Of a DNA stretch of 64,000 nucleotides, positions 7,025 through 26,399 are shown in pieces. The stretch's first letter is position 1, and every line of letters begins with the position of its first letter. The notes beneath the pieces are model-generated. The model saw nothing but the letters and a program-made list of their open reading frames with translations, was not told the origin of the DNA and searched no databases. Location: the NCBI GenBank assembly GCA_027077805.1, contig JALWTS010000033.1, positions 105,133-169,132 on the forward strand. The letters run 5' to 3'. This stretch comes from Gammaproteobacteria bacterium. GTDB taxonomy: Bacteria; Pseudomonadota; Gammaproteobacteria; JABHGC01. Position numbers and translations under genes: made by a program.

Positions 7025-7323
7025 AAAATATTTTGCCAATTAAAAATCAATATTCTATCATGTTTATGAGCTTTGAAAAGATTTTGGATTTCGTAAAAAA
7101 TTTTCAGTATTTTTTAGTTCTTGGTATAAAATTAAATAAAATTTAGTTGTGAATTATAAAATCATGCACTACATTTAAAGCAGGATTTGGCTAAAGGTTT
7201 AGTGAAATTTCAAGCAATTTTACTATATTTATTACAAATAATGTTGCAGTTAGCATAATTCGTTGAGTAATTTTTGATTTAATGAGAATGAATCTTAACA
7301 CATAACATAAATGAGGAGTGCCG
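7025..7323. promoter_or_regulatory. Divergent intergenic region gshA / pilG
   Basis: About 300 bp of AT-rich non-coding DNA separates the divergent gshA and pilG genes and must contain promoters for both. No single consensus sigma-70 or sigma-54 site stands out well enough to mark. GAGGAG at 7313-7318 is the pilG ribosome-binding site. Confidence 0.5.
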
Positions 7324-7716
7324 GTGGCAGAGCATGCAGTAGAACCCGATATTGCGGGGTTAAAGATTATGGTGGTAGATGATAGTAAAACTATCCGTCG
7401 GACTGCTGAAACTTTATTAAAAAAGGCAGGATGCGAAGTAATTACCGCAATCGATGGGTTTGAAGCATTATCCAAAATTGTGGATAACAAACCCCATGTT
7501 ATTTTTATTGATATTATGATGCCACGTTTGGATGGTTATCAAACCTGTGCTTTAATTAAACATAATAGGGATTATAAAGCAACACCAGTCATTATGTTAT
7601 CAAGTAAGGATGGTTTGTTTGATAGAGCAAGGGGTCGGATTGTCGGTTCTGAAGAATATTTAACTAAACCTTTTACCAAAGATGAATTATTAGGGGCAAT
7701 TCGAAAATACTCTTGA
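7324..7716 (+). CDS. pilG: Twitching motility response regulator PilG
   Basis: A single-domain CheY-like receiver of 130 aa. The acidic pocket is MVVDDSK (residues 16-22), the phospho-acceptor is D63 in FIDIMMPRLDGYQ, and the C-terminal Lys lies in YLTKPF. The segments MMPRLDGYQTCALIK and PVIMLSSKDGLFD are strongly PilG-like. In Pseudomonas PilG is phosphorylated by ChpA and drives pilus extension and polarity through FimV/FimL. The frame opens at GTG 7318, but that codon overlaps the GAGGAG ribosome-binding site. GTG 7324, five bases after it, is the better start. First gene of the Chp cluster. Confidence 0.95.
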   Translation: MAEHAVEPDIAGLKIMVVDDSKTIRRTAETLLKKAGCEVITAIDGFEALSKIVDNKPHVIFIDIMMPRLDGYQTCALIKHNRDYKATPVIMLSSKDGLFDRARGRIVGSEEYLTKPFTKDELLGAIRKYS

Positions 7717-7819: not shown

Positions 7820-8239
7820 ATGAGGTGGTTATTTGGTTTGTTTAAGCCAAGAAAGGGAAAAAACCGGATGGCACGTGTATTAATTGTCGATGATTCTCCA
7901 ACAGAAACTCATGTTCTAAAATCAATTTTGGAACGCAATGGTTATGAAACTTTATCTGCACCTAACGGTGAAGAAGGTATTGAAACGGCAAGACAGGAAC
8001 GCCCTGATCTCATATTGATGGATGTGGTGATGCCTGGTTTAAATGGCTATCAAGCCACGCGACGTTTGAGTCGTGATCCCGTTACATCTTCAATTCCTGT
8101 GCTAATTGTAACCACGAAAAATCAGGAAACAGATAAGGTTTGGGGTTTAAGACAAGGTGCAAAAGGATATATTGTGAAACCTGTGTCTGAGCATGAGTTA
8201 ATGTCTAAAATTAAAGCTGTTTTACCTACGGGGAGATAG
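7820..8239 (+). CDS. pilH: Twitching motility response regulator PilH
   Basis: Second CheY-like receiver of the Chp system. The core starts MARVLIVDDSPTE; the phospho-acceptor Asp is in ILMDVVMPGLNGYQ (D52 of the core, D68 from the first ATG) and the switch Lys in YIVKPV. In Pseudomonas PilH competes with PilG and is thought to act as phosphate sink or retraction regulator. Two starts compete: ATG 7820, preceded by AGGTGA at 7810-7815, gives a 16-residue basic hydrophobic extension (MRWLFGLFKPRKGKNR); ATG 7868 gives the usual length. The extension has a good ribosome-binding site and may be real. The pilI gene follows without a gap. Confidence 0.94.
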   Translation: MRWLFGLFKPRKGKNRMARVLIVDDSPTETHVLKSILERNGYETLSAPNGEEGIETARQERPDLILMDVVMPGLNGYQATRRLSRDPVTSSIPVLIVTTKNQETDKVWGLRQGAKGYIVKPVSEHELMSKIKAVLPTGR

Positions 8240-8242
8240 TTG

Positions 8243-8797
8243 GTGGGAATGCCAAATATGCAAGACCCATTTGATGTTTTGGTCAATATAGAGAATAAAA
8301 GCAGAAAGTATGCTCTCGTACCCGAACAGGAAAAAATGGAAGAATTGTGGCCGGGAATTGCCTTTAAAGTATGTGATGCTAAGGTAGTTTCACCCGTTGG
8401 GCAGATCACTGAAATTATTCACTATCCAGAGCCTTCCATCATTCCGGGTACTAAGATATGGATGAAAGGAATTGCGAATATTCGGGGTAGTTTAGTCCCT
8501 ATTGTTGATTTGCAAGCATTTTTATGTGGTCATGTAATCGTTCCTAATCCACGAAGTCGCTTATTGATGGTTGAGCATCAAAAACAAGATACCGTCTATC
8601 CCTTAGGTTTATTAATTGCTGATGTAATAGGGATGAAACAGTTTCGGCATGAGGAATCTTCCTCTAATATTGCAATGTATTCGGATTTTTTTCAACCTTA
8701 TATGAAAGAATCATTTTACAGAGAAAAGGAGCGATGGGGTGTATTTGATATGACTATTTTATTACAAAATCCTGACTTTTTGGAAGTGACATTATAA
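8243..8797 (+). CDS. pilI: CheW-like adaptor PilI
   Basis: A CheW-domain protein of about 184 aa that should couple PilJ to ChpA. CheW features include PVGQITEIIHYPEPSIIPGT, WMKGIANIRGSLVPIVDLQ, and LLIADVIGMKQFRHEE, as in Pseudomonas PilI. The exact start is uncertain. The frame opens at TTG 8240 directly after the pilH stop; GTG 8243 lies seven bases after GGGGAG (8230-8235) and is chosen; ATG 8249 and ATG 8258 are alternatives, the last giving the family-like start MQDPFDVLVNI. Tight spacing to pilH indicates co-transcription. Confidence 0.93.
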   Translation: MGMPNMQDPFDVLVNIENKSRKYALVPEQEKMEELWPGIAFKVCDAKVVSPVGQITEIIHYPEPSIIPGTKIWMKGIANIRGSLVPIVDLQAFLCGHVIVPNPRSRLLMVEHQKQDTVYPLGLLIADVIGMKQFRHEESSSNIAMYSDFFQPYMKESFYREKERWGVFDMTILLQNPDFLEVTL

Positions 8798-8900: not shown

Positions 8901-10946
8901 ATGAAATCCATTGCCACCAATGATGCTTTGCAACGAATTACTGCAAATCGACTGACTGTTATCTTATCAACTTTACTTTTGTTAGTAATTACTTTAGCTC
9001 TGATCACCTTTATCTATGTTGCCCAATGGGAGTTACATGACAAAGGATATCTTAACCGTGCGGGGGAGCAAAGAGTATTATCTCAACAAATTGCAAAATA
9101 CGCACTTGCGGCGGCAAGTGGTAAAAAGGAAGCCTTTCGTCAATTAGAAGCCTCACGCAATCGTTTTGATGAAATTTTACAAGAGTTAAAAAACGGAATT
9201 CCTGGCAAATTACCTGCTTCTCCTAAGGATATCAATGACATTTTAGCAGATGTTGAATCTCAGTGGCGCATATTACGGGAAAATGCAGACGAAATTTTAA
9301 GTGGTGAGAATCCAATTACTTCTGTGGGGGAGTGGGTTAATGTGATCACTGAGTTAATGCCACAATTGCAAGATACTGCAGCATCTGTCGCAAAAGTTTT
9401 AGTAAAGCAAGGGGCTGATCCTCGTCAAGTTTATATTGCAACTCGTCAATTGATGTTAGCACAACGAATTCAAAATAATGTGAATCAGGTATTAGCGGCA
9501 AGTAATGTTGAAACAGAACAATCAGTGGAACAATTTAAACGTGATTCCGATTTATTTGGACGGGTTTTAGAGGGCATGTTTAAAGGGGATGAAAAACTAA
9601 AAATCACCAAAGTGGAAGGTCCTGCTGAGCGACGTTTGGGTGATGTGGCAATGTTGTTTGTTACTATTCATGATCATGCCGAGGAGATCATTCAAACGAC
9701 ACCTAAAGTCATTCCTGTATTAAGAGCAGCCGTAAAATCAACTGAGGTTAGTGATTCGTTAGATCAGGCTACGAAAGAATTGATTGTTGCTTATGGTACA
9801 TCACCTGGTCGTTTAAGTATTGGTCCTATGAAAGTTGGTACGAATTTGATTATTATCTTGGGTGGTTTTGCCTTACTTTTATTGGTAATTTTAGGTATTC
9901 ACTTATTATTTGAATCACGTCGTCGTGAGCGTGTGAGTGATGAAATGAACCAACGCAACCAAAAAGCGATTTTGCGTTTGATGGATGAGATGGATGCCTT
10001 AGCCGATGGTGACTTAACGGTACATTGTACCGTAACAGAAGATGATACGGGAGCGATTGCAGATGCAATTAACAACGCCATTGAAACCTTAAGACGATTA
10101 GTAAAAACGATTAACACTACTTCAGAGCAGGTATCGGCTTCAGCACAAGAAACTCGGGCAACCGCAATGCACTTAGCCGATGCAACCGAACACCAAGCCC
10201 AACAAATTAGTGGGGCGAGTCAGGCGATTCAACAAATGGCAGACTCCATTGATCAGGTCTCACAAGATGCGACAGATACCGCGCAAGTCGCACAGCAATC
10301 GCTGATTACTGCAAATAAAGGAGCGGATAAAGTACGTTCTACCATTAATGGTATGGATTCCATTCGTGAGCAAATCCAAGAGACTTCAAAACGGATTAAG
10401 CGTTTAGGGGAAAGTTCGCAGGAAATTGGAGATATTGTAGAGTTGATTGATGATATTGCGGATCAAACCAATATCTTAGCCTTAAATGCTGCCATGCAGG
10501 CGGCAATGGCAGGTGAGGCAGGTCGAGGTTTTGCTGTGGTAGCCGATGAGGTGCAACGCTTAGCTGAGCGTTCTGGTAACGCGACCAAACAGATTGAGGC
10601 ACTGGTAAAAACGATTCAGGCGGATACCAATGAAGCAGTAAGTTCAATGGAATTAAGTACCGCAGGGGTAGTGAGTGGTGCACGTCTCGCAGAGGATGCG
10701 GGTGATACTTTAGAAGAGATTCAAAACGTATTTAAACAAGTGGTAAACTTAACCCAACGGATTTCTGAGGCATCACAACAACAGGTATCTTCAGCCACTA
10801 ATATTTCTGATACTATGAATGTGATTCAGGAAATTACGAAACAGACTTCAGATGGTACAACCCAAACAGCACGTTCAATTGGACGATTGGCTGATTTGGC
10901 CGACGATCTACAGAAATCTGTATCCGGTTTCCGATTACCAACCTAG
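8901..10946 (+). CDS. pilJ: Type IV pilus methyl-accepting chemotaxis protein PilJ
   Basis: A 681-aa MCP with a first membrane segment at about residues 19-42 ([20 protein letters not shown]), a periplasmic region of about 270 aa that includes the tandem helical PilJ sensor modules ([18 protein letters not shown] and [17 protein letters not shown]), a second membrane segment near residue 316-338, a HAMP region, and a long cytoplasmic coiled coil. The signalling tip is clear: [20 protein letters not shown] followed by [18 protein letters not shown]. It senses pilus tension or surface contact in Pseudomonas. The start has GGGAG at a good distance. It is followed by an intrinsic terminator, so chpA likely has its own promoter. 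No pilK methyltransferase follows. Confidence 0.96.
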
Positions 10947-11101: not shown

Positions 11102-14100
11102 ATGAACGATACTATTGATTATAGTGCTATCAAATGGATCAAAACGGAAGTTGATGAAACCCTTAAATTAGCAGGACATGCTTTAGAACAGTATATGGAA
11201 AGTGGCTTTGATCTAGATGAACTTGACGCTTTGGCGAAGTTACTACATCAAGTTCATGGGGTCTTACAAATGGTTGGATTATATGGTGCTGTTCAACTGT
11301 TGGAGGAAATGAGCCATGTTATTTCAGGTCTAAAACAAGATGTTATTGCTAGAAAAGAAGATGCGGTTGAAGTATTATCAAGAGCGATTTTACAAATTCC
11401 TGATTATTTGGAAAGATTACAAGCTGGAAGTAAAGATATTCCCTTAGTTTTATTGCCATTGATGAATGATTTAAGGGCAAGTCGAGGAGATAATTTACTC
11501 AGTGAAGAAGCCTTATTTTCGCCAAATTTATCAAATTTTAAACACAATCAAGTTTATCAACAAGATCAAGTCGAAAATGATTTATCAGCATTAGCAAAGT
11601 CCTTACGCCATAATTATCAGCGGGGTTTACTGAGTTGGTATCAAGGGGAAGCGAAAGAAGGCTTAAAGCGAATTCAAGATGTATTAGAAGTGTTGGAAAA
11701 CTCAGCGACATTTTTACCTGTAAAAAAATTATGGTGGGTTTGTAGTGGTTTAGTGGATGCTTTAATTAATGACGATTTAGAATCGAGTGTTGCGGTTAAG
11801 CTATTAGTAGGGCATGTTGATCGGCAAATATTAAAGTATTTAATTGATTATGATGAGTCAAGGCTTGCGAATAATTTGCCTGAAAATTTACTCAAAAATT
11901 TACTTTATTATATTGCGAGATCAAATCGAGGATCGCAAATTGTCAACCAAATCAAAGATGAATTTGCCTTAGATCGAGCATTGCCCAGTGAAGCAGAATT
12001 ATCATCTGCCCAGGCGGATTTAAGTGCACCAACGGTTGATATGTTACGCACTGTGATTGTTGCCATTAAAGAAGATTTAGCAGGGGTTAAAGACGTATTA
12101 GATTTATATATTCGAGTGGGGCAAAATCAAGATGAGTTAAGTAAATTACAAGAAAGTTTACGCAAAATTGCAGATACTTTAGGCATGATGGGGCAAGGTG
12201 GCTTGCGTCAGAAAATGATGGATCAAATTGAGTATTTGGCTTCATTATTATCAGCAGATACGAAAATCAAAGATGATAGCATCATGAATGTTGCCAGTGA
12301 ACTATTAGTCATTGAGACAGCATTAGACGGTTTATTAACTGGGAAAATTGCCTTATTTGAATCAGGTTACGATCAAGACGAAATGAATGCTGACTTATCA
12401 CTAGATGGTTCTGTACCTGAAGTTGAGTTTCAACGGGTATTAGGAATGGTTTTACATGAGATTACCATTGAGATTGGTCGGGCAAAAGATGCCATTATTG
12501 AATATATTGACAATCCTTCAAAATACCAACTGCTAGAAAATACCCCCAATTCTTTTCATATTATATGGGGAGCATTTGAAATCTTAGGTATGGATAGAAT
12601 TAATTTGTCGTTAGATTCGATTTCTCAGTATATTACAACTAATTTATTAGAAAACAAAATTGAACCAAGTCAAGATCATTCCAATTACTTGGCAGATGCG
12701 ATTACTGGCATTGAATATTATGTGGAAGCAGTCGATGAAGGGCGACCTTATCGTAGCGATATTTTGGCAATGATTGAAGAAAGTGTGGCAACTTTGGGTT
12801 ATCCTATTGAAAATAATGATCCTGATTTAACCGTAAGGCATGATGAGGCTGAGTATTCCACACCTGAGCTTACTGAAAATGATATTAGCACTCAGCAATC
12901 AAGTGAGGTTGATGATAATGCGGTTGAGTTAGCACCCCTTGAATTTGAAAGCAGTCATGCTGATGGGCAAACGGATAGTAATGTTGTTGAAGCTTCATTA
13001 GCTGAACCTATGGTCGTTATTCCTGAAGCAGTTGCCCCTGTTGAATTAGTCATGGGTGATGTCGATGATGAAATTAAAGAGATTTTTATTGAAGAGGCTT
13101 TAGAAGTTTTAGAAGATATTAAAACCTATTATCCTCAATGGAAAGCGACAGGTGATAAAGAGGCTTTGACAATTTTTAGACGTGCTTTTCATACGATGAA
13201 AGGTAGCGGGCGTATGGTTCAAGCCTTGACAATTTCAGAATTAGCTTGGGCAATTGAAAATTTACTTAATCGAGTGATTGATGAGACAGTGGAAATCACT
13301 GATGCTTTGTATCAAGTGATGGATAGTGTCATAGATGTATTACCTATAGTAGTTGATGCTTATCAACATGGCACAGCTATTACGATTGATTTAGAAACGA
13401 TTCAAGCAAAAGCAAATGCTTTAAGCGAAGGTCAAGCGGAAGATGTGGTAGCGTCAATGAGTCTTGAATCAATTAATGCCGTTGAAATTCCAGAAACAGA
13501 TGCGGAAGAATCAGTGGCTGAGACGGACGAAGCCATGAGTTTTGAGTTAGAAAGTACTGAAGAATCAACGGATAGTGAATCTGAACAAGATCAAACCATG
13601 AGTCTTGATTTAGAAGCCTTAGGTATTGAATCTGAACAAGAGCAAACTATTGTTGATGCCGATATTGGGTATGATATTGAAGCCATTGATTTTGCTGAAC
13701 AGGCACCTGCTCAACCTCGCATGGATGCAACATTACTCAGTATTTTTCAACAAGAAACGAAAGGTCATACTGATGTTATACAGAGTTTTATTAGTCAAGC
13801 TGGAGAGACAGGCGATGATTTACGTTGTAATGAGTCCTTAAAGCGAGCCTTGCATACGCTGCATGGCAGTGCCCATATGGCAGAAGTAACACCGATTGCT
13901 AAAGTGTCAAGACAGCTAGAATACATTGTCAAATCTTTGTTATTATCGAAACGACCTGTTAATGCTGAGATAATTCAAGCATTAGAAAAAGGTATGGGAA
14001 TTATTGCAGATGTCATGGATTATCTAGCGGATGATAAGTTAGCAGAACCTGAATATCAGCCATTTGTAAGTTATTTGGAACAATTAAGAGAAAATGTTGA

Positions 14101-16918
14101 ACAAGCCAGTAATGATATGAGTCATGATCGGGTTGAAGAAGAGCTTAAAGCGGATGTTTTAGATGATGAATTATTAACTATTTTCCTAGAAGAATGTTCT
14201 GATTTATTAGAAACTTTAGATGCTTCGCTACAGAGTTTTGTGGCAGAACCTACTAATATGAAATTTGTTGCTGATTTACAGCGTTCGTTACATACCATTA
14301 AGGGCAACGCGAAAATGTCTGGGTTTGAAATCATGGCAGATTTAACCCATAGTTTTGAGACTATGTTAACTGCTGTGAGTCAAGGTAAATTAACCGTGTC
14401 AGAACCAGTCATTGATTTAAGTCATCAAGCGACAGATGGTTTGATTAATATGTTAGATACTATTGCCACAAAACAAGACTTAGTGCCTGCTACTGCCTTA
14501 ATTAATGATCTGGAAAATATTGTTAAGGAAGTCCCTGACACTGGTATTTCTGAGCGTGATCCATTGCTAGACAGTGAAAATATTGGTGGTGATACTGTTA
14601 TTGAAGGTATTAGTAATACTGTGAGTGAATCTTTAACGGATTTAGTTGATACATCTGATGCCGATATTTCTATGGAAACTTTGGCTCAAGATTTACAACA
14701 AATTTCAGAAACTTTAACGACAGCTGAGTCTGATAGTCAATTAACTGTAAGTGATAGCCAAAAGCAAGTCAGCGAAATTGTGGAACAGCCACTTGATAGT
14801 TCTGAGCAAGTATCAGAAACAACTGAAACCATCGCTGAGTCAATTGAGCTAAGTAGTCAAGACCAAGCACATCATTCTAAGGAGGCAAAAACCCAAAATA
14901 CTGTTACTCCGCTTGAAACAAAATCACAACCCAAAGATCAACTTGAAGATTTTGTTAAAGCCTTGCCAAAATCAGTCATGACAAATCTTCAAACGGATCA
15001 ACAACAAACTTCGATATCTAAACCTGTTAATAAAAAAGTTGAGGAAGAAGACATGGCCAAAGTTAAGACGCCTAAAAGAGTTGCCCAAGAGCAAATTAAA
15101 GTTCGTGCGGATTTACTAGATGATATGGTGAATTATTCTGGGGAAATCAGTATTTATCGTGCCCGTTTAGAACAACAAAATGGTACGTTTCGATTTAACT
15201 TAACTGAGCTATCACAAACCGTTGCTCGCTTGCGTGAACAATTACGCAAGTTTGAAATTGAAACAGAAGCTCAAATGTTATTTCGTTATGAAAAAAATGC
15301 CCCTGATTCCAAAGATGAAGAGTTTGATCCCTTAGAAATGGATAGATTTTCTAATATGCAGCAGCTTTCTCGAAGTTTATTAGAAAGTATTAGCGATTTG
15401 GTGAGTATTCAGGAGATTATGGAAAATCTTAGTCGTGAATCTGAAACCTTATTACTACAACAATCACGAGTGATTACTGAATTACATGAAGGTTTGATGC
15501 GAACTCGTATGGTTCCTTTTTCTAGCATGGTACCTAGAATGAACCGCTTGGTCAGACAAACTTGTAATCAATTAAACAAGAAAGTGGAACTAGAAGTCGT
15601 TGGTGCAGAAGGTGAAATGGATAGAACCATTCTTGATGGTATGATGGCGCCTTTAGAACATATGATTCGGAATGCTATTTCACATGGTATTGAAACCCCT
15701 GATGATAGAAAAGCAAAAGGTAAACCAGAGACAGGTAAAATTACTTTAACTTTATCTCGTGATGGTACTGATATTGTGTTAGATATTGCTGATGATGGGG
15801 CAGGTATTCCCGTTGATGTGGTAAAAAATAAAGCCATTAAAGCAGGAATTTATACTCAAGAAGAAGCCGATCAAGCACCTAAAGAGGATATTTTACGTTT
15901 GATTTTACATTCTGGTCTAAGTACTGCTCAACAAATTACCCAGATTTCTGGACGTGGTGTTGGCATGGATGTGGTGAATAGTGAAATTAAACAATTAGGT
16001 GGTGTATTAGAAATTGGCTCAGAAAAAGATAAAGGTTCGCAATTTACCATTCGCTTACCATTTACATTGGCAATTAACCAAGCCTTACTCGTTCAAGTTA
16101 ATGAGGATGTGTATGCCGTACCTCACTCTAGTATTGATGGTGTGGTAAGGCTTTCTAGGGAAGAATTAGAACGTTCTTATACTAAGGATAAGGAATACGA
16201 ATATGCAGGTCATAAATATCATGTACAACATTTATGTACCCTGTTAGGTAGTGCACAACCTTCACTACCAGAACAAGGGCGATGGTTTCCAGTATTACTA
16301 GTGCGTTCAGGGCAACATAGGGTAGCATTACAAGTGGATGCATTAATGGGAAATAGAGAAATTGTAGTGAAATCAGTCGGGCCCCAGTTAAGTAATGTCA
16401 ACTGGATATCAGGAGCGACAATTCTTGGCGATGGTCGTGTCGTATTGATTTTGGATGTAACTACTTTGGTTAGAATAGGGGCAATTAAAACACCTGATGA
16501 GGCAACGCCTGTTGAACAAAAAGTAGAGGAACAACGTCAACAAATCACAGTAATGGTTGTAGATGATTCGATCACCGTAAGAAAAGTTACCACCCGTTTA
16601 TTAGAACGTCATGGCATGAATGTCTTTACGGCTAAAGATGGGGTGGATGCCGTTGGTAAACTACAAGATCAAGTTCCTGATATTATGTTGTTAGATATTG
16701 AAATGCCCAGAATGGACGGTTATGAGTTAGCACAACATGTTCGTAATAACGAACGTTTAAGAGATATTCCCATTATTATGATTACCTCTAGGCATGGTGA
16801 AAAACATAGACAAAGGGCAATGGAAATTGGGGTAAATAGTTATTTAGGTAAACCTTATCAAGAAGCAGAGTTGTTGGATAATATTCATTCTTTATTAACT
16901 TCAACTCATTCAGTTTAA
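11102..16918 (+). CDS. chpA: Chemosensory hybrid histidine kinase ChpA (CheA family)
   Basis: A 1938-aa CheA-type kinase of the type IV pilus Chp system. In order: an N-terminal Hpt-like module with H49 in LLHQVHGVLQMV, two degenerate helical Hpt-like modules to about residue 560, then three Hpt domains with standard phospho-acceptors: H697 (FHTMKGSGRM), H918 (LHTLHGSAHM, where the usual Lys after the His is His) and H1064 (LHTIKGNAKM). A long acidic Ser/Thr/Gln-rich linker follows to about 1330. Then come the dimerisation helices (RADLLDDMVNYSGEISIYRA), the ATPase with N box HMIRNAISHGIE and G boxes DIADDGAGIP and GRGVGMDVV, a CheW-like regulatory domain (about 1660-1800), and a C-terminal receiver with D1865 in MLLDIEMPRMDGYE. 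It should phosphorylate PilG, PilH and its own receiver. Confidence 0.96.
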   Translation: MNDTIDYSAIKWIKTEVDETLKLAGHALEQYMESGFDLDELDALAKLLHQVHGVLQMVGLYGAVQLLEEMSHVISGLKQDVIARKEDAVEVLSRAILQIPDYLERLQAGSKDIPLVLLPLMNDLRASRGDNLLSEEALFSPNLSNFKHNQVYQQDQVENDLSALAKSLRHNYQRGLLSWYQGEAKEGLKRIQDVLEVLENSATFLPVKKLWWVCSGLVDALINDDLESSVAVKLLVGHVDRQILKYLIDYDESRLANNLPENLLKNLLYYIARSNRGSQIVNQIKDEFALDRALPSEAELSSAQADLSAPTVDMLRTVIVAIKEDLAGVKDVLDLYIRVGQNQDELSKLQESLRKIADTLGMMGQGGLRQKMMDQIEYLASLLSADTKIKDDSIMNVASELLVIETALDGLLTGKIALFESGYDQDEMNADLSLDGSVPEVEFQRVLGMVLHEITIEIGRAKDAIIEYIDNPSKYQLLENTPNSFHIIWGAFEILGMDRINLSLDSISQYITTNLLENKIEPSQDHSNYLADAITGIEYYVEAVDEGRPYRSDILAMIEESVATLGYPIENNDPDLTVRHDEAEYSTPELTENDISTQQSSEVDDNAVELAPLEFESSHADGQTDSNVVEASLAEPMVVIPEAVAPVELVMGDVDDEIKEIFIEEALEVLEDIKTYYPQWKATGDKEALTIFRRAFHTMKGSGRMVQALTISELAWAIENLLNRVIDETVEITDALYQVMDSVIDVLPIVVDAYQHGTAITIDLETIQAKANALSEGQAEDVVASMSLESINAVEIPETDAEESVAETDEAMSFELESTEESTDSESEQDQTMSLDLEALGIESEQEQTIVDADIGYDIEAIDFAEQAPAQPRMDATLLSIFQQETKGHTDVIQSFISQAGETGDDLRCNESLKRALHTLHGSAHMAEVTPIAKVSRQLEYIVKSLLLSKRPVNAEIIQALEKGMGIIADVMDYLADDKLAEPEYQPFVSYLEQLRENVEQASNDMSHDRVEEELKADVLDDELLTIFLEECSDLLETLDASLQSFVAEPTNMKFVADLQRSLHTIKGNAKMSGFEIMADLTHSFETMLTAVSQGKLTVSEPVIDLSHQATDGLINMLDTIATKQDLVPATALINDLENIVKEVPDTGISERDPLLDSENIGGDTVIEGISNTVSESLTDLVDTSDADISMETLAQDLQQISETLTTAESDSQLTVSDSQKQVSEIVEQPLDSSEQVSETTETIAESIELSSQDQAHHSKEAKTQNTVTPLETKSQPKDQLEDFVKALPKSVMTNLQTDQQQTSISKPVNKKVEEEDMAKVKTPKRVAQEQIKVRADLLDDMVNYSGEISIYRARLEQQNGTFRFNLTELSQTVARLREQLRKFEIETEAQMLFRYEKNAPDSKDEEFDPLEMDRFSNMQQLSRSLLESISDLVSIQEIMENLSRESETLLLQQSRVITELHEGLMRTRMVPFSSMVPRMNRLVRQTCNQLNKKVELEVVGAEGEMDRTILDGMMAPLEHMIRNAISHGIETPDDRKAKGKPETGKITLTLSRDGTDIVLDIADDGAGIPVDVVKNKAIKAGIYTQEEADQAPKEDILRLILHSGLSTAQQITQISGRGVGMDVVNSEIKQLGGVLEIGSEKDKGSQFTIRLPFTLAINQALLVQVNEDVYAVPHSSIDGVVRLSREELERSYTKDKEYEYAGHKYHVQHLCTLLGSAQPSLPEQGRWFPVLLVRSGQHRVALQVDALMGNREIVVKSVGPQLSNVNWISGATILGDGRVVLILDVTTLVRIGAIKTPDEATPVEQKVEEQRQQITVMVVDDSITVRKVTTRLLERHGMNVFTAKDGVDAVGKLQDQVPDIMLLDIEMPRMDGYELAQHVRNNERLRDIPIIMITSRHGEKHRQRAMEIGVNSYLGKPYQEAELLDNIHSLLTSTHSV

Positions 16919-16981
16919 GAATAAGAAGTAAGAACAAGAAGTAAGAACAAGAAGTAAGAAGAATAATAAGAAGAAGAAAAA
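16919..16981 (+). repeat. Purine-only tract with three 13-bp tandem repeats
   Basis: Immediately after the chpA stop, the unit AGAAGTAAGAACA occurs twice exactly (16924-16936, 16937-16949) and a third time with a changed end (16950-16962), and the A/G-rich stretch continues to 16981. It forms most of the leader between chpA and the next gene. No hairpin terminator is visible, so read-through from chpA is likely. Confidence 0.8.
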
Positions 16982-17018: not shown

Positions 17019-20000
17019 ATGGCAGAAGCAGTTCAACAAATTGTTCGTAGTATGTTTATTCCTTATGGTAACAGCCAACTCGTGTTGCCTAACGTTGCTA
17101 TTGCTGAGATTATTTCTTTTGTTGAACCAGAAATGGCACCAGGTACGCCAACATGGTTACTTGGTGGTCTTATTTGGCGAGATAAAGTTGTGCCTTTGGT
17201 CTCATTTGATGAACTTTGTGGTGAAGCCTGGACTCGCTCTGGGCCAAGAAAAAATCGGATTGCAATTTGTCACACTTTAAGTGATAACTCTGAAGTGGAA
17301 TTTATTGCGTTTGTGGTAACAGGGACGCCATCTTTAATTCAAATTAAACGTGATTCTATTAAAGGTGAAGTGAGGAGTAAAAATGAATCTCCTGTGATTT
17401 TATATCATGTTATGGTTGGCAACAATACGGCGATTATTCCCAATCTAGTCGAGTTGGAGAATATGCTGAAAATGTATATTACGCCATTGAGAACTTATGC
17501 TCAAGAAGCCTTGGAACGCAAGAAAAAACCTGAACTTAAACCATTGGATCTTGGGGATGTTGATGAAGAAATCGTAGAAATCTTTATTGAAGAAGCTCAA
17601 GAAAATATGGCACTAATTCAAGAATATTATCCAAAATGGAGAGAGACGGGTGATGAAGAGGCCTTAACGATGTTTAGACGTTCATTTCATACTATTAAGG
17701 GAAGTGGACGCATGGTTAATGTTGACTTTATTAGTGAATTAGCATGGTCAGTGGAAAATATGTTAAACCGATTAATTGATAATAGCATTCAGGTCACGCC
17801 AGCTTTATATAGTGTCATGGATGATGTATTAAGCGTCTTACCAACTTTAATCCAGTTTTTCGTGGATAGATATTATCCTGATATTGATGTGCAAGCCTTA
17901 CGAGATCGTGCCGATGCTTTAAGTCGAGGGGAAGAAATTGAGGCGACGTCAGTCTTTGATCAATCAGTGGAAACATCAAAAGCACAATTACAGCCACAAT
18001 CCACTGCGGATATCGATGAAGACTTATTAGAAGTCTTCTTAGAAGAAGGTCAAGAATTGATTGATAATATTGAAACTGCGTTTCAATCCTGGAAACAATC
18101 CCCTAATGATGAAGCAATTATTGCTGGTTTACATCGTTCTTTACATACGTTAAAAGGCAGTGCTAGATTAACTGGTTTGACAGTGATGGGGGATATTAGT
18201 CATGCTTTAGAATCTTTATTAAATGCCGTAGGTGACAAGAAAATTGCCGTGTCTGAAGAAGTCGTTACTGTTGCAAATACGACGGTTGATCATTTATCAG
18301 TCATGTTAGAAAAGATTAAACAAAACAATATTCCCGATTCGGATTATGGTTTAGTGGCTGAGATCGAAGCATTGTTATCACCTCCTGATGATGCAGAAGA
18401 ACAAGAGATTGATCCTGAATTAGTAGAAATCTTTTTAGAAGAAGGTCAAGATTTGATAGAAAGCATTGAACAAACTTTCCAAGAATGGAAACAACAACCG
18501 AATGATCATCAGTTAATTTCAAGTTTACATCGTAGTTTACATACTTTGAAGGGAGGGTCTCGCTTAGCAGGAATTAAAGTGATTGGTGATGTGAGTCATA
18601 TGTTTGAGTCTATGTTAACTGCTGTATCTGAAGGACGACTTAAGGTCGATGATGAAGTGATTACAATGGCAAATACTACCATTGATAGTTTAGTTTCAAT
18701 GTTAGATCAAGTCAAAGGAGGGAATATCCCAGATTCTGATTATGGTTTGACCACAGAAATTGAGGCAATTTTATTTGCACCCACAGAACAAAGTGAGGAT
18801 GACGTTGATCCAGACCTATTAGAGGTATTTTTAGGCGAAGCTCAAGAATTAGTCAATCAAATTGATCACATTTTTCAAGATTGGAAAGTGAAACCTGAGG
18901 AACCTAATATCATTGCAGAACTTTATCGGGCCTTACATACTTTAAAGGGTGGGGCAAGACTGGCAGGATTAACGGCAATTGCGAACTTAAGTCATAGCAT
19001 TGAATCTGTGTTAACTTCAATTAGCGAGCATCGTTTAACCGTTTCAGATGACATTACTCGTGTGACTGAATTAACAGTTGATAATTTAGCTTCAATGGTA
19101 GAGTTGACACAACAAGGTGAGGTCCCTGATATTGATCAAGATTTATTAGCACAGATAGAACAAATATTAGAACGATCAACGGCACCAGAAGACAAAATTG
19201 ACAAAGATTTATTAAGTGTTTTTGTTGATGAAGGTCAGGAATTAATGGATGCCATTGAGACTACCTTCCAAAAATGGAATGATAATCCGAATGATGTTGA
19301 AGTCATTGCTAGTTTAAAACGTTCGTTACATACTTTAAAAGGGGGAGCAAGACTCTCTGGTTTAGATATTATGGGGGAACTCAGCCATGCTTTAGAATCG
19401 TTGTTAGGTGCCGTGGAAGAGCATCGTTTGCAAGCGTCTGATTCTATTATCCAACTGGCAAATATGGCAGTAGATGGGCTTGCATCTATGCTGGAAATAT
19501 TACAACAAGGCGATATTCCAAGCAGTGATAATGGTTTGCTCATTGAAATTGAGGCGGTATTACCAAAAGCAGCGTTTGAGTCCGATGAAGAAGTTGATCC
19601 TGAGTTAGTCGCTATTTTTCTACAAGAAGCTCATGATTTGGTGGATAATGTTGATGCTAATTTCCAAACTTGGAAAACTGATTCTTACAACAATGAATTA
19701 ATTGCCGATTTACATAGAGCTTTACACACTTTAAAAGGGGGGGCAAGGTTAGCGGGATTAACTGTTATTGGAAATTTAACACATGCAATTGAGTCGGTAT
19801 TTACTGCGGTAGGTGAGCGTCAACTCGCAGTATCTGAGCATATTACTGAGGTTGTAAGTGCTGCTATTGATCATTTGGCAACTATGTTAGAACTTGTGGA
19901 AAAAAATATTATACCTACCTCTGATCAAGGCTGGATTGAGAAAATTGAGGCTATTTTAGAAAATGTGGCCACTACAAGTGTAGGTAATAGTGTGGATGAT

Positions 20001-21620
20001 ATTAGCGATACATTGCTTGCTGGTGATGGTGATACGGAGCTAACTGTTGCTGATGATCAAGTCGTTGATGCAGGTGATGAGGAAGATGACGTTGATGAAT
20101 TACTGCAAGTATTTTTAGAGGAAGGGCAAGACTTATTTGATGGGATTGATACCAGCTTCAAAGAATGGTTAAGTAATCCAACGGATCCAAATATTATCGC
20201 TGATTTACATCGTTTTTTGCATACTTTAAAAGGTAATGCAAGATTATCTAGTTTTATTGTCATGAGCGATGTTGCTCATGCTTTAGAATCTTTGTTTATT
20301 GCTTTAGGTGAACATCAATTGCAAATTTCCGAGGATATTTTAGATATTGCTAGTCAAACCTTAGACCATTTAACTTATATGTTTCACCAAGTGAAACAAG
20401 GCGAAATACCACAATCTGACAATGACTTAGTGGCGAAAATTGAAGATTTATTTAATGTAGTAGCAGTTGACGAAGAAGAAATTGATGAGGATTTATTAGA
20501 AATCTTTTTGGAAGAAGGTCAGGAGTTATTAGATGCCATTGAATTAAGTTTTCAAGATTGGATGGAACAACCGACTGACGCGGGTATTATTGCTGATTTA
20601 CATCGTTCCTTACATACGTTAAAAGGCAGTTCCAGATTAGCAGGATTAAAGGTTATTGGCAATTTAAGTCATGCTTTGGAGTCAATGTTTACTTCAATTG
20701 GCGAGAATAAAATGCCTGCAACTGATGCCATTATGAAGTTAGCAAATCAGGGGGTTGATCAACTAGTTGCAATGTTAGAGCAGATTGAGGGTGTGAGTAC
20801 CATTCCTGATTCTGATCAAGGTTTAGCAGAAAGAATTAAATATTTGGTATCACATCCTGATAAAGTGGATTCTTTAGTCGATGTGAAACATGAACAAGCA
20901 GTGATTGACAATAATTCGCCGACTGTAGAGGTAATGCCAGATGCCACGATGAAAGTTTCAGAAGACACAAGGGATACTAAGGTAATGCCAGATGTTGCGA
21001 GGGAAGTTGTAGAACATATTGAGGAATCCCCATTAGAATCTGAAGTCATTCCGAATACAATGCTTGAAACTATGGCAGGCAATGAAACTTTAGCGTTAGA
21101 AGTAACAGATGAAACTGCGATGGTTTCAGATTCAACGGTAGGGACAAATGATGTTCAAACTGAGAGCACAGTTGATGAAACAGTTGAACAAACTACCACT
21201 GAAATGACTTCACTTCGAGAATTAGATGATTTTGATGAGGATTTATTAGATATTTTCTTATCAGAAGCCGATGAATTAATTGAAAGTATTGAATTAACCA
21301 TTCAGGATTTTCGGGTTGATAGGGGTAATACTGAACTATTGACTAGTTTACAGCGTTCTTTACATACTTTAAAAGGTGGTGCAAGAATGGCTAGTATTAT
21401 GAGTATTGGCGATTTAAGTCATGCTTTAGAATCTTTATTAGTTGCGGTAGTTAATCATAAACTAGAGGCAAGTGATGAAGTCATTGAGTTAACGGAACGT
21501 ATTGTGGATGAATTGGTGAATATGTTGGAAATTGTTTCGCAACAACAATTACTTCCTTTTGCAGCAGATAATTTGGTTGAAGAAGTTAAAACCATGTTAG
21601 GTGGTGAGTTAACAGCTTAA
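17019..21620 (+). CDS. CheW domain fused to nine tandem Hpt domains
   Basis: A 1533-aa protein without membrane segments. Residues 1-150 form a CheW-like domain (SQLVLPNVAIAEIISFVEP, WLLGGLIWRDKVVPLVSFDE). Nine Hpt domains follow, each with an intact phospho-acceptor in an RxxHTxKG context: H224, H376, H508, H640, H771, H903, H1068, H1199 and H1449. Spacing is 131-132 residues for most repeats (152, 165 and 250 at three junctions), each opening with an acidic segment such as DPELVEIFLEEGQDLIESIE. Before the last Hpt lies an acidic low-complexity linker (about 1280-1400). There is no dimerisation helix, ATPase or receiver, so it cannot autophosphorylate. The N-terminal part resembles the ChpC-type CheW adaptors of Chp systems. 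I infer an array-bound phosphate acceptor or relay served by ChpA and/or the hybrid kinase downstream. AGGT before ATG 17019 is a fair ribosome-binding site. Confidence 0.92.
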   Translation: MAEAVQQIVRSMFIPYGNSQLVLPNVAIAEIISFVEPEMAPGTPTWLLGGLIWRDKVVPLVSFDELCGEAWTRSGPRKNRIAICHTLSDNSEVEFIAFVVTGTPSLIQIKRDSIKGEVRSKNESPVILYHVMVGNNTAIIPNLVELENMLKMYITPLRTYAQEALERKKKPELKPLDLGDVDEEIVEIFIEEAQENMALIQEYYPKWRETGDEEALTMFRRSFHTIKGSGRMVNVDFISELAWSVENMLNRLIDNSIQVTPALYSVMDDVLSVLPTLIQFFVDRYYPDIDVQALRDRADALSRGEEIEATSVFDQSVETSKAQLQPQSTADIDEDLLEVFLEEGQELIDNIETAFQSWKQSPNDEAIIAGLHRSLHTLKGSARLTGLTVMGDISHALESLLNAVGDKKIAVSEEVVTVANTTVDHLSVMLEKIKQNNIPDSDYGLVAEIEALLSPPDDAEEQEIDPELVEIFLEEGQDLIESIEQTFQEWKQQPNDHQLISSLHRSLHTLKGGSRLAGIKVIGDVSHMFESMLTAVSEGRLKVDDEVITMANTTIDSLVSMLDQVKGGNIPDSDYGLTTEIEAILFAPTEQSEDDVDPDLLEVFLGEAQELVNQIDHIFQDWKVKPEEPNIIAELYRALHTLKGGARLAGLTAIANLSHSIESVLTSISEHRLTVSDDITRVTELTVDNLASMVELTQQGEVPDIDQDLLAQIEQILERSTAPEDKIDKDLLSVFVDEGQELMDAIETTFQKWNDNPNDVEVIASLKRSLHTLKGGARLSGLDIMGELSHALESLLGAVEEHRLQASDSIIQLANMAVDGLASMLEILQQGDIPSSDNGLLIEIEAVLPKAAFESDEEVDPELVAIFLQEAHDLVDNVDANFQTWKTDSYNNELIADLHRALHTLKGGARLAGLTVIGNLTHAIESVFTAVGERQLAVSEHITEVVSAAIDHLATMLELVEKNIIPTSDQGWIEKIEAILENVATTSVGNSVDDISDTLLAGDGDTELTVADDQVVDAGDEEDDVDELLQVFLEEGQDLFDGIDTSFKEWLSNPTDPNIIADLHRFLHTLKGNARLSSFIVMSDVAHALESLFIALGEHQLQISEDILDIASQTLDHLTYMFHQVKQGEIPQSDNDLVAKIEDLFNVVAVDEEEIDEDLLEIFLEEGQELLDAIELSFQDWMEQPTDAGIIADLHRSLHTLKGSSRLAGLKVIGNLSHALESMFTSIGENKMPATDAIMKLANQGVDQLVAMLEQIEGVSTIPDSDQGLAERIKYLVSHPDKVDSLVDVKHEQAVIDNNSPTVEVMPDATMKVSEDTRDTKVMPDVAREVVEHIEESPLESEVIPNTMLETMAGNETLALEVTDETAMVSDSTVGTNDVQTESTVDETVEQTTTEMTSLRELDDFDEDLLDIFLSEADELIESIELTIQDFRVDRGNTELLTSLQRSLHTLKGGARMASIMSIGDLSHALESLLVAVVNHKLEASDEVIELTERIVDELVNMLEIVSQQQLLPFAADNLVEEVKTMLGGELTA

Positions 21621-22414: not shown

Positions 22415-22441
22415 ATGATTTTTTTCGGGGACACTGTTTGG

Positions 22442-25141
22442 ATGAATAAACAATCTGATAACAAAACGCACCGAAATAGTGCTATCAATGATAAAAATTG
22501 CTTTGCTTACTTAATTTCTTGGTTTCGGACAACTCATTTTTCGCAATTAGGGCAATTTCAATCAAAATTATTTGTTGTTTTTGCCATTATTGTGGTGATG
22601 ACGATGTTAGCAACCGGTTTTGCTTTTTATTCTTTTGCTCGTCTTGGACATATGGTAAGTGTTACCGTTGATAATACGATTCCTGAAATGATTGCGGTAA
22701 TGAATTTATCAAAGCAAGGGGCTTTATTAACATCAGTTGCACCGACTTTGGCCTTATCACAAAAAGAAGAAGAAATTAAACATACGGTTGCTTATATGGA
22801 TCAATTAATGAACACCATACTTCATGATGTGATGGTTTTAGGCAATCAACAAAATCGGCAAAGTATTTATCATATTCGAGATTTATCATTAACATTACTC
22901 AAAAATTTGGAACAACTCAAAGATCAAACCGCACAAAAATTAATTCTTAAACAAAAGAGCAAACAACAATTTCAAAATATTAGAAGTATTCAACAAGATT
23001 TAGTCAATTCGGTTGATCCATTGGTATATGGTATTAATACTATGATGAATAAATTAGCTGAACAAATTATTCAGCAAAATCGGCAAATTGTTCAGCAAAT
23101 GATGGAACAATATGTTAACTATATTATGATATTATATCAACTACGTTTGGATTTATTTGAATTTGAGTATATATCAGGAGGGGCAAAACAACAATTTCGT
23201 CGAATACTTGATATTGCCATTAAACAATTAGAAAAAAATCAAGCATCTGCTGCTCAAGTCGTCGTAGAGTTGTTGAAAAAAGATATGTCGCCTTCAAAAC
23301 AGAATCTACAACTTGTGAATAATCGAATATCGCATCAAATTCAAAAACAAAAAGAGTATTTAAGCGAAGTTTACCAACAATCTTTGGATTTTAATGAATC
23401 ATCAGTAACAGCATTAATTGAAAAAATTGTTAGAGATTTAGGATATGCACTTAATATCAAGGGGGAAGGCAATCTCTTAATTGGTTTATTAAATGCCGTA
23501 TCAGAAGTGTCAGAAGCAATGATGATATTGCATTTAAACAATGAATTTTCTCGTTCTGTTGCTGAGTTTGAAAATGCTGTTGCAGTATTTGAGGCTAGCC
23601 AACTAGCAAAACAACAACCTGTATTGATAACAAATATTTTGGATATTAAAAATCGCTTATTAGCCTTAGGTGATAATAGCAATGAAAATGGTATTTTTAC
23701 TATTCGACAACAACAAATTATTGTTACTAATAATATTAGAGATTTGTTAGCCAAAAATCAAAAAATTGCCACATTGATGATAGAACAAATCGAAAGATTA
23801 TTGACTGAAGTAAGTACGGTTTCATATCGGCAAAAAAATGATGTACGTCATATTAAAAATACTAGTCAGTGGTTATTATTAGGTGTTTCAGTGGTAACCA
23901 TCTTTTTACTGGTTTTGATTGCCTATCGTTCAATTTATATTTTGGATTTACATGAGAAGAACTTACAGTCAGCCAAAGAGGTTGCGGAAGTTGCGAATCA
24001 AGCTAAATCCGAGTTTGTGGCATCAATGAGTCATGAGTTAAGAACACCAATGAATGGGATTATTGGCTTTACGGAACTATTATCAGAAACCAAGTTAGAT
24101 ACAAAACAAAAACATTATGTTGATACCGTATATGATTCTGCAAGTACCTTATTAACGATTATTAATGATATTTTGGACTTTTCTAAAATTGAAGCAGGCA
24201 AATTAGAGTTAGAACATATTGAATTTAATTTGCATGATGCCGTATGCAATGTTACCGCATTACTAACAAAAATTGTTGATTCTAAGGGGATTTATTTGCG
24301 AATCAATGGCTTGGATTCCGTGCCCAAATTATTTTGTGGTGATCCCGTGCGATTGCGTCAGGTATTACTGAATTTGGTGAATAATGCAGTGAAATTCACT
24401 GAAAAAGGGGGGGTAGTGCTTAAAGTTGAACAGGCATTTAAACGAGCAAATAAGGTTGGTTTAAGATTTGAAGTGGAAGATACGGGTATTGGGATTCCTA
24501 AGCATCGTTTATCATCACTGTTCCAAAAGTTTTCTCAAGTTGATTCTTCTACTTCTAGGAAATATGGTGGGACTGGTTTAGGACTGGTAATTAGCCAAAA
24601 ATTGGTAGAAATGATGGATGGTGGCATTGGAATTGATAGTATTGAGGGAAAAGGAACTAAGATTTGGTTTGTGATTGTATTAGATGAATCTGAGCAATCT
24701 GAAATGATGAAACCTGTGGAAGTTGTTAAACAAGAAATTGTAACAGAAAAGAATATTTTATTGGTCGAAGATAATAAAGTCAATTGTATGTTAGCACAAG
24801 CATTACTTAAAAAGGATCAACATCAAATTACTACTGTTTATAATGGTAAAGAAGCATTAGAGGCGGTACAGTTAAATGATTTTGATTTGATATTAATGGA
24901 TGTGCAAATGCCTGAAATGGATGGTTATGAAGCCACGGGGGCGATTCGACAACTATCAGAGAACAAGTCTAAGGTAGTGATTATTGCGTTAACAGCGAAT
25001 GCGATGGAGGGGGATGCCCAGCGTTGTTTAGAGGCAGGAATGGATGATTATTTATCCAAACCCATACAACATAAAAAACTGCGAGAGAAAATTGCTTACT
25101 GGGCAGATAAACAGCATTCATCCACCCAGATTATCAGATGA
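22442..25141 (+). CDS. Membrane hybrid sensor histidine kinase
   Basis: About 899 aa from ATG 22442 (frame open to ATG 22415; a GGGG 8 bp before 22442 favours the shorter form). Layout: membrane segment [20 protein letters not shown] near residue 40-60, a long helical periplasmic sensor of about 420 aa without a recognised domain, a second membrane segment ([19 protein letters not shown]), then HisKA with H531 in [12 protein letters not shown], an ATPase with [18 protein letters not shown] and [12 protein letters not shown], and a receiver with D820 in [15 protein letters not shown]. There is no C-terminal Hpt, which phosphorelay kinases of this type (BarA-like plan) need for output. The adjacent nine-Hpt protein could supply it; this is inference from proximity. 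It ends one base from the convergent porin gene. Confidence 0.92.
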
Positions 25142-25142
25142 T

Positions 25143-26399
25143 TTAAAGTTTAAATTTAGCCCCAAGTGTTAACCAAATTTTTTCCGTGTCAAATGAAAAA
25201 TCTTCCGCATCATAATTGGCATATTTAACACTAATGGTATAATCTTTTAAGAATTTTTTCGCTAATATCACATCCCATTCTTGACCATAATCAAGGCCAC
25301 CGCCTTGTGATTCAAATTCGTGATAAACAACCGTTAATTTAGCCCCAAACATTTTAGCACCAAGTGTGTAAAATAAATCGTCTAATCCATCTGGGGGGGT
25401 TGTTAAAAATTTATCTGCCCATCCATTAAAAGCATGTAGGGTTGCTAATGGTGTTGAAAAAGCAATGCCATCTTCTCCTGATAAGATTTCATAACCTATT
25501 TTGCCAAAGACACTGGATTTCTTATTAAGTTGGTATTGTGTGCCTAACTCAACTAGGTAATAATCTAAGCCAAAATTGTTTGGATTATTAGCATGATCCG
25601 TTTGATGAGCATATTCAAAGGTATAAAGTGCTTTAATCCCCGGACCTACGCCTGGTTTCCCGTGTAATCGTATGCCCAAGGTTTGCGATGATAGACCTGA
25701 GAAGTCATAACGTGATGAGTAGTTATTAAAGTTTAACCAATAGGCATAGGCAGTTGCCGTACCAAAACCTAAACCATGATAGCTAATATTTAGCAAGTGC
25801 GAATCCATTCTAAAATCATTGGCTTGTCTGGAGTTATGGCTGTTATCTGTAAAAATGCGATTCACATTGTCAATAAAAACATAATTAACTTTAACATCGC
25901 CAATGGATTCATTCAAAACGGAAATCGCATCAAAGGTTTGTTCATTTTGTCGCCAGCCAACATTGCCAACGAATCTGGCATTGTCCAAAATAATGCGTTG
26001 TCGTCCAATTTTGGTTTTAGTGCCAAAGCCTTCATAATAAAGGTACATTTGGTTAAGTTCAGTATCATGGGCATCCGCAACTACTGAATGATTAGTCGTA
26101 CCTTCACCCACTGGATCTAAAAAGTCATCAGCACGTCTGGAGCCAATATTAACGGTATTTTCAATTTCACCAAAAATTTTAAAGCCATGAAATAGTTTTG
26201 TTTCATAGCCTAAGCGAGTTCTTAAGGTTGAAGCATTCGCATGATCTTTGCCATTATCTTCATCGACATGTTCATAACGATAACGAAGATCAGCGTGAAT
26301 TTTACCTTTGCTTAAAGCTTCAACAAAGCTGGTGGCATAAGCTGTCGGTATGCTTAAGCTCAGCAAACCTAATGCAAGATAAGCGTGATATTTTTTCAT
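25143..26399 (-). CDS. Outer-membrane beta-barrel, porin / alginate-export-like
   Basis: A 418-aa exported protein. Signal peptide MKKYHAYLALGLLSLSIPTA ends near AYA-TS. The mature part has many alternating aromatic/hydrophobic strands (LRYRYEHVDEDNGKDHA, TRLGYETKLFHGFKIFGEIE, TKIGRQRIILDNARFVGNVG) and ends in a strand finishing WLTLGAKFKL, as outer-membrane barrels do. RYRYE ... TRLGY ... and GRQRI ... are seen in the alginate-export-type porin family; the substrate cannot be told. It stands alone between the hybrid kinase (convergent) and glnD, with a roughly 180-bp upstream gap. Confidence 0.75.
   Translation of the reverse strand: MKKYHAYLALGLLSLSIPTAYATSFVEALSKGKIHADLRYRYEHVDEDNGKDHANASTLRTRLGYETKLFHGFKIFGEIENTVNIGSRRADDFLDPVGEGTTNHSVVADAHDTELNQMYLYYEGFGTKTKIGRQRIILDNARFVGNVGWRQNEQTFDAISVLNESIGDVKVNYVFIDNVNRIFTDNSHNSRQANDFRMDSHLLNISYHGLGFGTATAYAYWLNFNNYSSRYDFSGLSSQTLGIRLHGKPGVGPGIKALYTFEYAHQTDHANNPNNFGLDYYLVELGTQYQLNKKSSVFGKIGYEILSGEDGIAFSTPLATLHAFNGWADKFLTTPPDGLDDLFYTLGAKMFGAKLTVVYHEFESQGGGLDYGQEWDVILAKKFLKDYTISVKYANYDAEDFSFDTEKIWLTLGAKFKL

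Follow-up and report, generated by a model that had tools for sequence, protein, structure and literature searches.

A ChpC-type coupling protein fused to nine Hpt domains, a candidate phosphate carrier for ChpA in a gammaproteobacterial Pil-Chp cluster

The 64,000-nucleotide stretch analysed here (the window), taken from contig JALWTS010000033.1 of a 50-contig draft gammaproteobacterial genome, contains a Pil-Chp chemosensory cluster in which chpA is followed by a gene joining a coupling domain to a long array of Hpt domains. The open reading frame (17019-21620, plus strand) begins at an ATG and runs uninterrupted for 1533 amino acids (aa): one CheW domain and then nine Hpt domains. We read this protein as a ChpC that carries a fused Hpt array, and propose that it would act in trans as an array-docked phosphate carrier for the kinase ChpA, with eight domains of the class that accepts phosphate from the kinase and one of the class that donates it to PilG; we put the probability of this reading at roughly 0.6. 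The protein likely docks in the sensor array and would take phosphate from ChpA, which would place on a separate molecule the sort of carrier site that ordinarily belongs to the kinase itself.

Domain content and ChpC identity of the fusion protein

An initial annotation, made from the sequence alone, had described a CheW domain and nine Hpts in one protein, and Pfam bears this out with a CheW match (E 4.8e-10) and nine passing Hpt stretches (E 9e-126, far beyond chance). The nine acceptor histidines that it listed are all correct (Table 1), as is their HT-x-K-G context (9/9), and the period that it called mostly regular is 131-132 residues in five of the eight His-to-His spacings (152, 132, 132, 131, 132, 165, 131 and 250). 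Outside 108-aa Hpt windows the linkers measure 22-56 aa, with a single exception of 141 aa. The annotation was also right that the protein lacks a kinase or receiver, in that HATPase_c, H-kinase_dim, dimerisation, P5 and receiver domains all gave no Pfam match at a cut-off of E 0.001. Matches to ExsD_C, FAD_binding_2 and HTH_35 are taken as chance, since none has a passing stretch and their best stretches overlap the Hpts.

The repeats are predicted to fold as Hpt domains of the CheA P1 subtype: two tandem copies, the first being Hpt2, are modelled as two separate helical bundles resembling CheA P1. The best PDB matches include P1 of Rhodobacter sphaeroides CheA3, and P1 of T. maritima CheA aligns across the phosphorylation-site stretch. 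The phosphorylation site of CheA P1 is formed by such His, Lys and Glu residues, and in the fusion the His, the Lys, the Gly and the Glu at +22 are kept in all nine domains, so that the claim that every His has been retained holds. The middle seven repeats (Hpt2 to Hpt8) share a mean protein identity of 49% with 23 of 104 columns invariant, among them the His, Lys +3, Gly +4, His +19 and Glu +22; Hpt1 has Trp at +19, its other site residues being kept.

The N-terminus, first described only as CheW-like, is a CheW domain that can be refined to the ChpC type by search, profile and gene position. Used alone as a query, it matched 16 of 36 relatives, with G001, a genome of the same family and another genus, at 3.3e-33, ChpC-like proteins of other families at up to 5.5e-25 and the PilI of its own cluster at 1.7e-5. 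Against a ChpC-like profile the domain scored an independent E-value of 5.8e-52 compared to 7.1e-8 for PilI, the profile having been built from twelve sequences with the fusion's own CheW among them. The fusion gene begins 100 base pairs (bp) after the end of chpA, and of nine other chpA loci examined, eight carry their best ChpC match further downstream on the chpA strand, at distances from overlapping frames to about 1.5 kb; the ninth, in G001, has no ChpC match downstream. Those eight loci were picked around known ChpC matches, and so tell us that ChpC is preceded by chpA, not how frequent ChpC is. The protein thus has the CheW fold, is nearer to ChpC than to PilI and is encoded directly downstream of chpA, and differs from ChpC in that its CheW domain does not stand alone. 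The gene occupies ChpC's place in the cluster, and from this place together with the ChpC-type CheW domain we conclude that the product is a ChpC with an Hpt array fused to it.

Hpt types, origin and age

In a tree of 68 Hpt domains the HQVHG, SGR and SA types each formed one supported group. By type the fusion contains one SGR domain (Hpt1) and eight GAR domains, with no HQVHG and no SA, while the window's ChpA has one of each of the four types and the ChpA of G001 has one SGR, one SA, two GAR and an N-terminal HQVYG variant. Both genomes have exactly one SGR-type Hpt in the fusion, in first position. In a 58-domain tree, which still held two long-branch rows (G013_A_857 and G015_A_1118) removed before the 68-domain tree, Hpt1 of the window's fusion is sister to the first Hpt of the G001 fusion (support 99/86), and this pair groups with the SGR-type Hpt of both of the order's ChpAs (99/92). 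Placement of Hpt1 with a GAR-type copy was rejected by the approximately unbiased test (p-AU 1.24e-10). The SGR domain was likely copied from ChpA into the fusion, since ChpA occurs widely and the fusion does not.

The middle seven Hpts form one clade in both trees (99/93 with 58 domains, 100/92 with 68), and the sister of that clade is the middle Hpt of the three in the G001 fusion (95/77 and 100/87). An ancestor of the form CheW-SGR-GAR-GAR, whose middle domain then multiplied to seven copies in the lineage of the window, would be the simplest history. Two further groupings were neither shown nor rejected: Hpt9 as the counterpart of the last G001 Hpt (p-AU 0.271), and a single clade made up of all eight GAR copies (p-AU 0.287).

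The repeat tree envisaged in the initial annotation relates Hpt1 to the SGR type of ChpA and derives the middle seven from one domain. The annotation had inferred recent internal duplication, of which the internal part stands and the recent part does not, the duplications being old. Identity among the middle seven is 58-67% in DNA and 42-56% in protein, with non-synonymous divergence (dN) of 0.30-0.48 and synonymous divergence (dS) of 0.9-2.5 by the NG86 method, values whose ratio is merely indicative as dS is saturated. Tandem Repeats Finder did not report the Hpt array, and with this and the DNA identity of the middle seven we reject recent tandem duplication.

Proposed phosphate flow and alternative explanations

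The ChpA of Pseudomonas aeruginosa is reviewed as having six conventional Hpts, with autophosphorylation on Hpt4-6 and reversible transfer between its receiver and Hpt2-6, the main donors to PilG and PilH being Hpt2 and Hpt3 (PMC5812489). The ChpA of a further genome, G541, also has six His-bearing Hpts, in the order HQVHG, SGR, SA, GAR, GAR, GAR. By domain order, SGR likely corresponds to the Hpt2 donor class of P. aeruginosa and GAR to the Hpt4-6 class phosphorylated by the kinase. The primary P. aeruginosa phosphotransfer paper reportedly has Hpt2 acting mainly with PilG, and Hpt3 with PilH. With GAR as input class and SGR as output class, the fusion would hold eight input sites and one output site, and because the array is not uniform it predicts a direction of phosphate flow.

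The CheW domain of the fusion would dock to PilJ and to P5 of ChpA, and the ChpA kinase domain would phosphorylate the GAR-type fusion Hpts in trans. These sites would store phosphate in equilibrium with the receiver of ChpA and the SGR-type Hpts, and the SGR-type Hpts would in turn supply PilG. With one GAR site in ChpA against eight on the adaptor, phosphate capacity and gain would be set by how much of the array this adaptor makes up. Docking in the array and redistribution of phosphate are plausible roles for a protein of this domain content. A tentative extension, which we consider less probable, is a modular phospho-battery for the array: in this order the kinase would have exported acceptor Hpts to an interchangeable ChpC, so that the number of Hpts per adaptor (three in G001, nine here) and the adaptor share would set memory time and gain of pilus steering independently of the kinase.

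Several points weigh against the proposal of a trans-acting carrier. Docking is argued from the CheW fold only, and the flow of phosphate through the fusion is a proposal. Phosphotransfer has no formal need of the fusion, since the window's ChpA retains four His-Hpts. The GAR domains form a single group at a support of 88/57 in the 68-domain tree, which is weak; the correspondence of SGR and GAR to P. aeruginosa numbering depends on domain order in G541, and the role of Hpt2 as donor to PilG, as opposed to PilH, is that reportedly given in the primary P. aeruginosa paper. In addition, the fusion gene is not always linked to chpA: in G001 the two lie on different contigs.

The fusion could instead be a phosphate sink, its nine Hpts draining the ChpA receiver or PilG and damping or ending the signal with no forward transfer. 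A protein with many acceptor sites and no kinase would suit this role, as would the excess of nine sites over the four His-Hpts of ChpA and the reversible transfer from the P. aeruginosa ChpA receiver to Hpt2-6 (PMC5812489). In a pure sink, however, an SGR-type domain would be superfluous, yet both genomes have exactly one, in first position. Phosphate on Hpt domains is also usually long-lived, which suggests storage rather than loss, and we regard a sink as unlikely. It is more doubtful still that the Hpts are a relay for other kinases that links another signal to the pilus array. One candidate is the hybrid kinase encoded downstream, which has HisKA, HATPase_c and receiver domains and no Hpt match, and in G001 the gene of an Hpt-less hybrid kinase also adjoins that of the three-Hpt fusion. 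These two hybrid kinases align just across the kinase-receiver part (34% over residues 472-896), however, and so are not clearly the same gene; the window's fusion and hybrid kinase genes are separated by 794 bp containing a TnpB-like relic, which leaves the link suggested in the initial annotation weak. The fusion Hpts are moreover of CheA P1 type and kin to those of ChpA, and the genome has Hpt matches in separate frames of 113 and 117 aa.

A mainly structural role, with the array as a spacer or scaffold holding partners near the pole and phosphorylation incidental, would agree with the modelling of two tandem Hpts as separate bundles and with the suggestion that non-phosphorylated Xpt domains of ChpA could be binding scaffolds (review, PMC12632253). 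It is hard to reconcile with the retention of His, Lys, Gly and Glu +22 in nine of nine domains amid the divergence of the middle seven, and we consider it improbable. That the long frame is an artefact of assembly or annotation seems very improbable: repeats are prone to misassembly in drafts such as this one, but the middle seven are too divergent for easy collapse, a second database record, which may come from the same sample, has the same 1533-aa protein on a longer contig (328,970 bases as against 169,132 here), and an intact three-Hpt counterpart occurs in another genus.

Distribution, gene neighbourhood and comparison with known systems

The fusion is present in both genomes of the order that were compared, so that the same CheW-Hpt(n) architecture recurs in a relative with a varying copy number. 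The G001 form is encoded in full (630 aa) on a contig of 5.4 kb, its gene flanked by a divergent hybrid kinase gene and, about 180 bp downstream on the same strand, by a gene for a single-domain receiver (L022:387-764, minus strand), a candidate phosphate target. On a contig other than that of chpA, G001 also has a 1138-aa frame with three Hpt stretches (L050, G001:C415, 3235-6648, minus strand), possibly a second chemosensory system.

The initial annotation had called a kinase-free CheW-polyHpt protein in such a cluster unusual, and it was rare in the samples searched. In a sample of the class, with up to ten candidates scored per genome, 254 of 369 genomes matched the ChpC-like profile; the best 150 rows represent 149 of these, and in the 147 besides the two fusion genomes no fusion was seen, as judged from ChpC frame lengths (120-324 aa; median 167 aa, stop to stop). 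Twelve frames exceeded 225 aa, namely the two fusions and ten others without Hpt. In a phylum sample that excluded G001, with up to five candidates scored per genome, 62 of 398 genomes matched and only the window's row covered both CheW and Hpt; of the remaining CheW frames, the four of greatest length (259-359 aa) had no Hpt. Among 48 genomes of another class 14 matched, by the Hpt part only. A scan of genome contigs gave two loci at 29-35% identity. Searches of a protein database covered lengths of about 173-549 and 843-2683 aa, leaving out the 550-842 aa range into which the G001 form falls. At 843-2683 aa (7993 candidates scored), CheW without HATPase_c was found only in the window's protein among the best 120 of 2839 matches, and a search with the CheW part found only that same protein among 210 candidates; at about 173-549 aa none of 24 matches had a listed CheW domain. 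Most of the closest named ChpA matches in the database are from Marinobacter, which points to Gammaproteobacteria for the source genome. The architecture is undescribed in the literature searched, which did not extend to the paper on CheW-like architectures of Vass (2023).

Within the window the cluster runs on one strand in the order pilG-pilH-pilI-pilJ-chpA and then the fusion (Table 1), the two single-domain receivers being presumably PilG and PilH by the gene order of P. aeruginosa. The His-Hpts of ChpA are H49 (HQVHG), H697 (SGR), H918 (SA) and H1064 (GAR), and its N, G1 and G2 box patterns and receiver DD are present. A 13-bp repeat (TAAGAACAAGAAG), present about five times at 16916-16978, accounts for much of the chpA-fusion spacer. 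In the gap before the hybrid kinase gene, a 39-aa frame at 21748-21867 matches a TnpB/Cas12f-like TNB domain (E 3.2e-6) and is probably a transposon relic. A 418-aa protein encoded at 25146-26399 (minus strand) has an Alginate_exp match above cut-off (E 7.4e-11) and adjoins a GlnD-type gene. A promoter and terminator scan gave no more matches than shuffled sequences. The whole draft genome has 19 Hpt matches (nine in the fusion, four in chpA) and six CheW-domain matches, of which one lies within a 668-aa frame on another contig; it also encodes three PilT-family ATPases that score above cut-off.

Table 1. Coordinates of the fusion gene, its domains and neighbouring genes in the window
Feature	Position	Strand	Remarks
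PilG-like single-domain receiver	7318..7716	+	putative, from gene order
PilH-like single-domain receiver	7820..8239	+	putative, from gene order
pilI, separate CheW adaptor of the cluster	8240..8797	+	
pilJ, chemoreceptor (MCP, PilJ domains)	8901..10946	+	likely docking partner; PilJ of G001 65% identical
chpA	11102..16918	+	likely partner kinase; 1938 aa; Hpt, HATPase_c, CheW-like and receiver domains
ChpC-polyHpt gene	17019..21620	+	1533 aa; CheW then nine Hpt, no kinase, no receiver
CheW domain, ChpC type	17064..17444	+	residues 16-142
Hpt1, SGR type	17550..17909	+	His224; likely Hpt2 class by order in six-Hpt ChpA
Hpt2, GAR type	18003..18368	+	His376; tree; first half of structure model
Hpt3, GAR type	18396..18764	+	His508
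Hpt4, GAR type	18792..19160	+	His640; tree
Hpt5, GAR type	19188..19553	+	His771; tree
Hpt6, GAR type	19584..19949	+	His903; tree
Hpt7, GAR type	20079..20444	+	His1068; tree
Hpt8, GAR type	20469..20837	+	His1199; last in seven-member clade
Hpt9, GAR type	21222..21587	+	His1449; outside seven-member clade
Hybrid kinase	22415-25141		HisKA, HATPase_c, receiver; no Hpt match

Compared with known proteins, the fusion has the CheW type and the position of ChpC and far exceeds its usual length. CheV, which is CheW plus a receiver, is likewise an adaptor with a phosphotransfer-related domain, and carries an Asp receiver where the fusion carries His Hpts. With ChpA the fusion shares the SGR and GAR types, SGR first, and Hpt (P1) domains with an acceptor His (9/9); it differs in having no match to dimerisation, HATPase_c, P5 or receiver domains and no HQVHG- or SA-type Hpt. 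ChpA is the multi-Hpt CheA of the type IV pilus (Tfp) class, with up to 14 Hpts recorded in Oleiphilus messinensis (PMC10782961), and why kinases of this type should carry such numbers of phosphotransfer domains is said to be poorly understood (PMC12632253). Here a coupling protein separate from the kinase carries one Hpt class, expanded and with every His kept, and since it lies on a separate adaptor, the many-Hpt question becomes testable in trans, with three or nine copies and the kinase untouched.

The nearest parallel in principle is the CheA3/CheA4 pair of R. sphaeroides, in which a chain with Hpt and CheW-like domains and no working kinase is phosphorylated by a separate kinase (Berry et al., PMC10782961); phosphorylation in trans by an array-docked kinase is the step that would be shared with the fusion. 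CheA3 has one His-bearing Hpt and a C-terminal CheW, whereas the fusion has nine and an N-terminal CheW; the partner of CheA3 has no Hpt, whereas ChpA keeps four; and CheA3 retains a decayed kinase remnant seen with HHpred (PMC10782961), whereas Pfam, a weaker test, found none in the fusion, whose CheW and Hpt parts come from another source. In other split CheAs the Hpt has a gene of its own within the same operon (PMC10782961), and 11 split CheAs have been counted against 470 complete ones (PMC3591291). In these the Hpt lies apart from the kinase chain, as in the fusion, but the arrangement is an Hpt-less kinase with a separate Hpt gene, and the passages on split CheAs in these two papers name no CheW-tethered nine-Hpt array. 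Splitting, it is argued, can give ultrasensitivity and bistability if the Hpt chain is a phosphatase too (PMC3591291), and the fusion widens the idea of the split chemosensory kinase beyond CheA3/CheA4.

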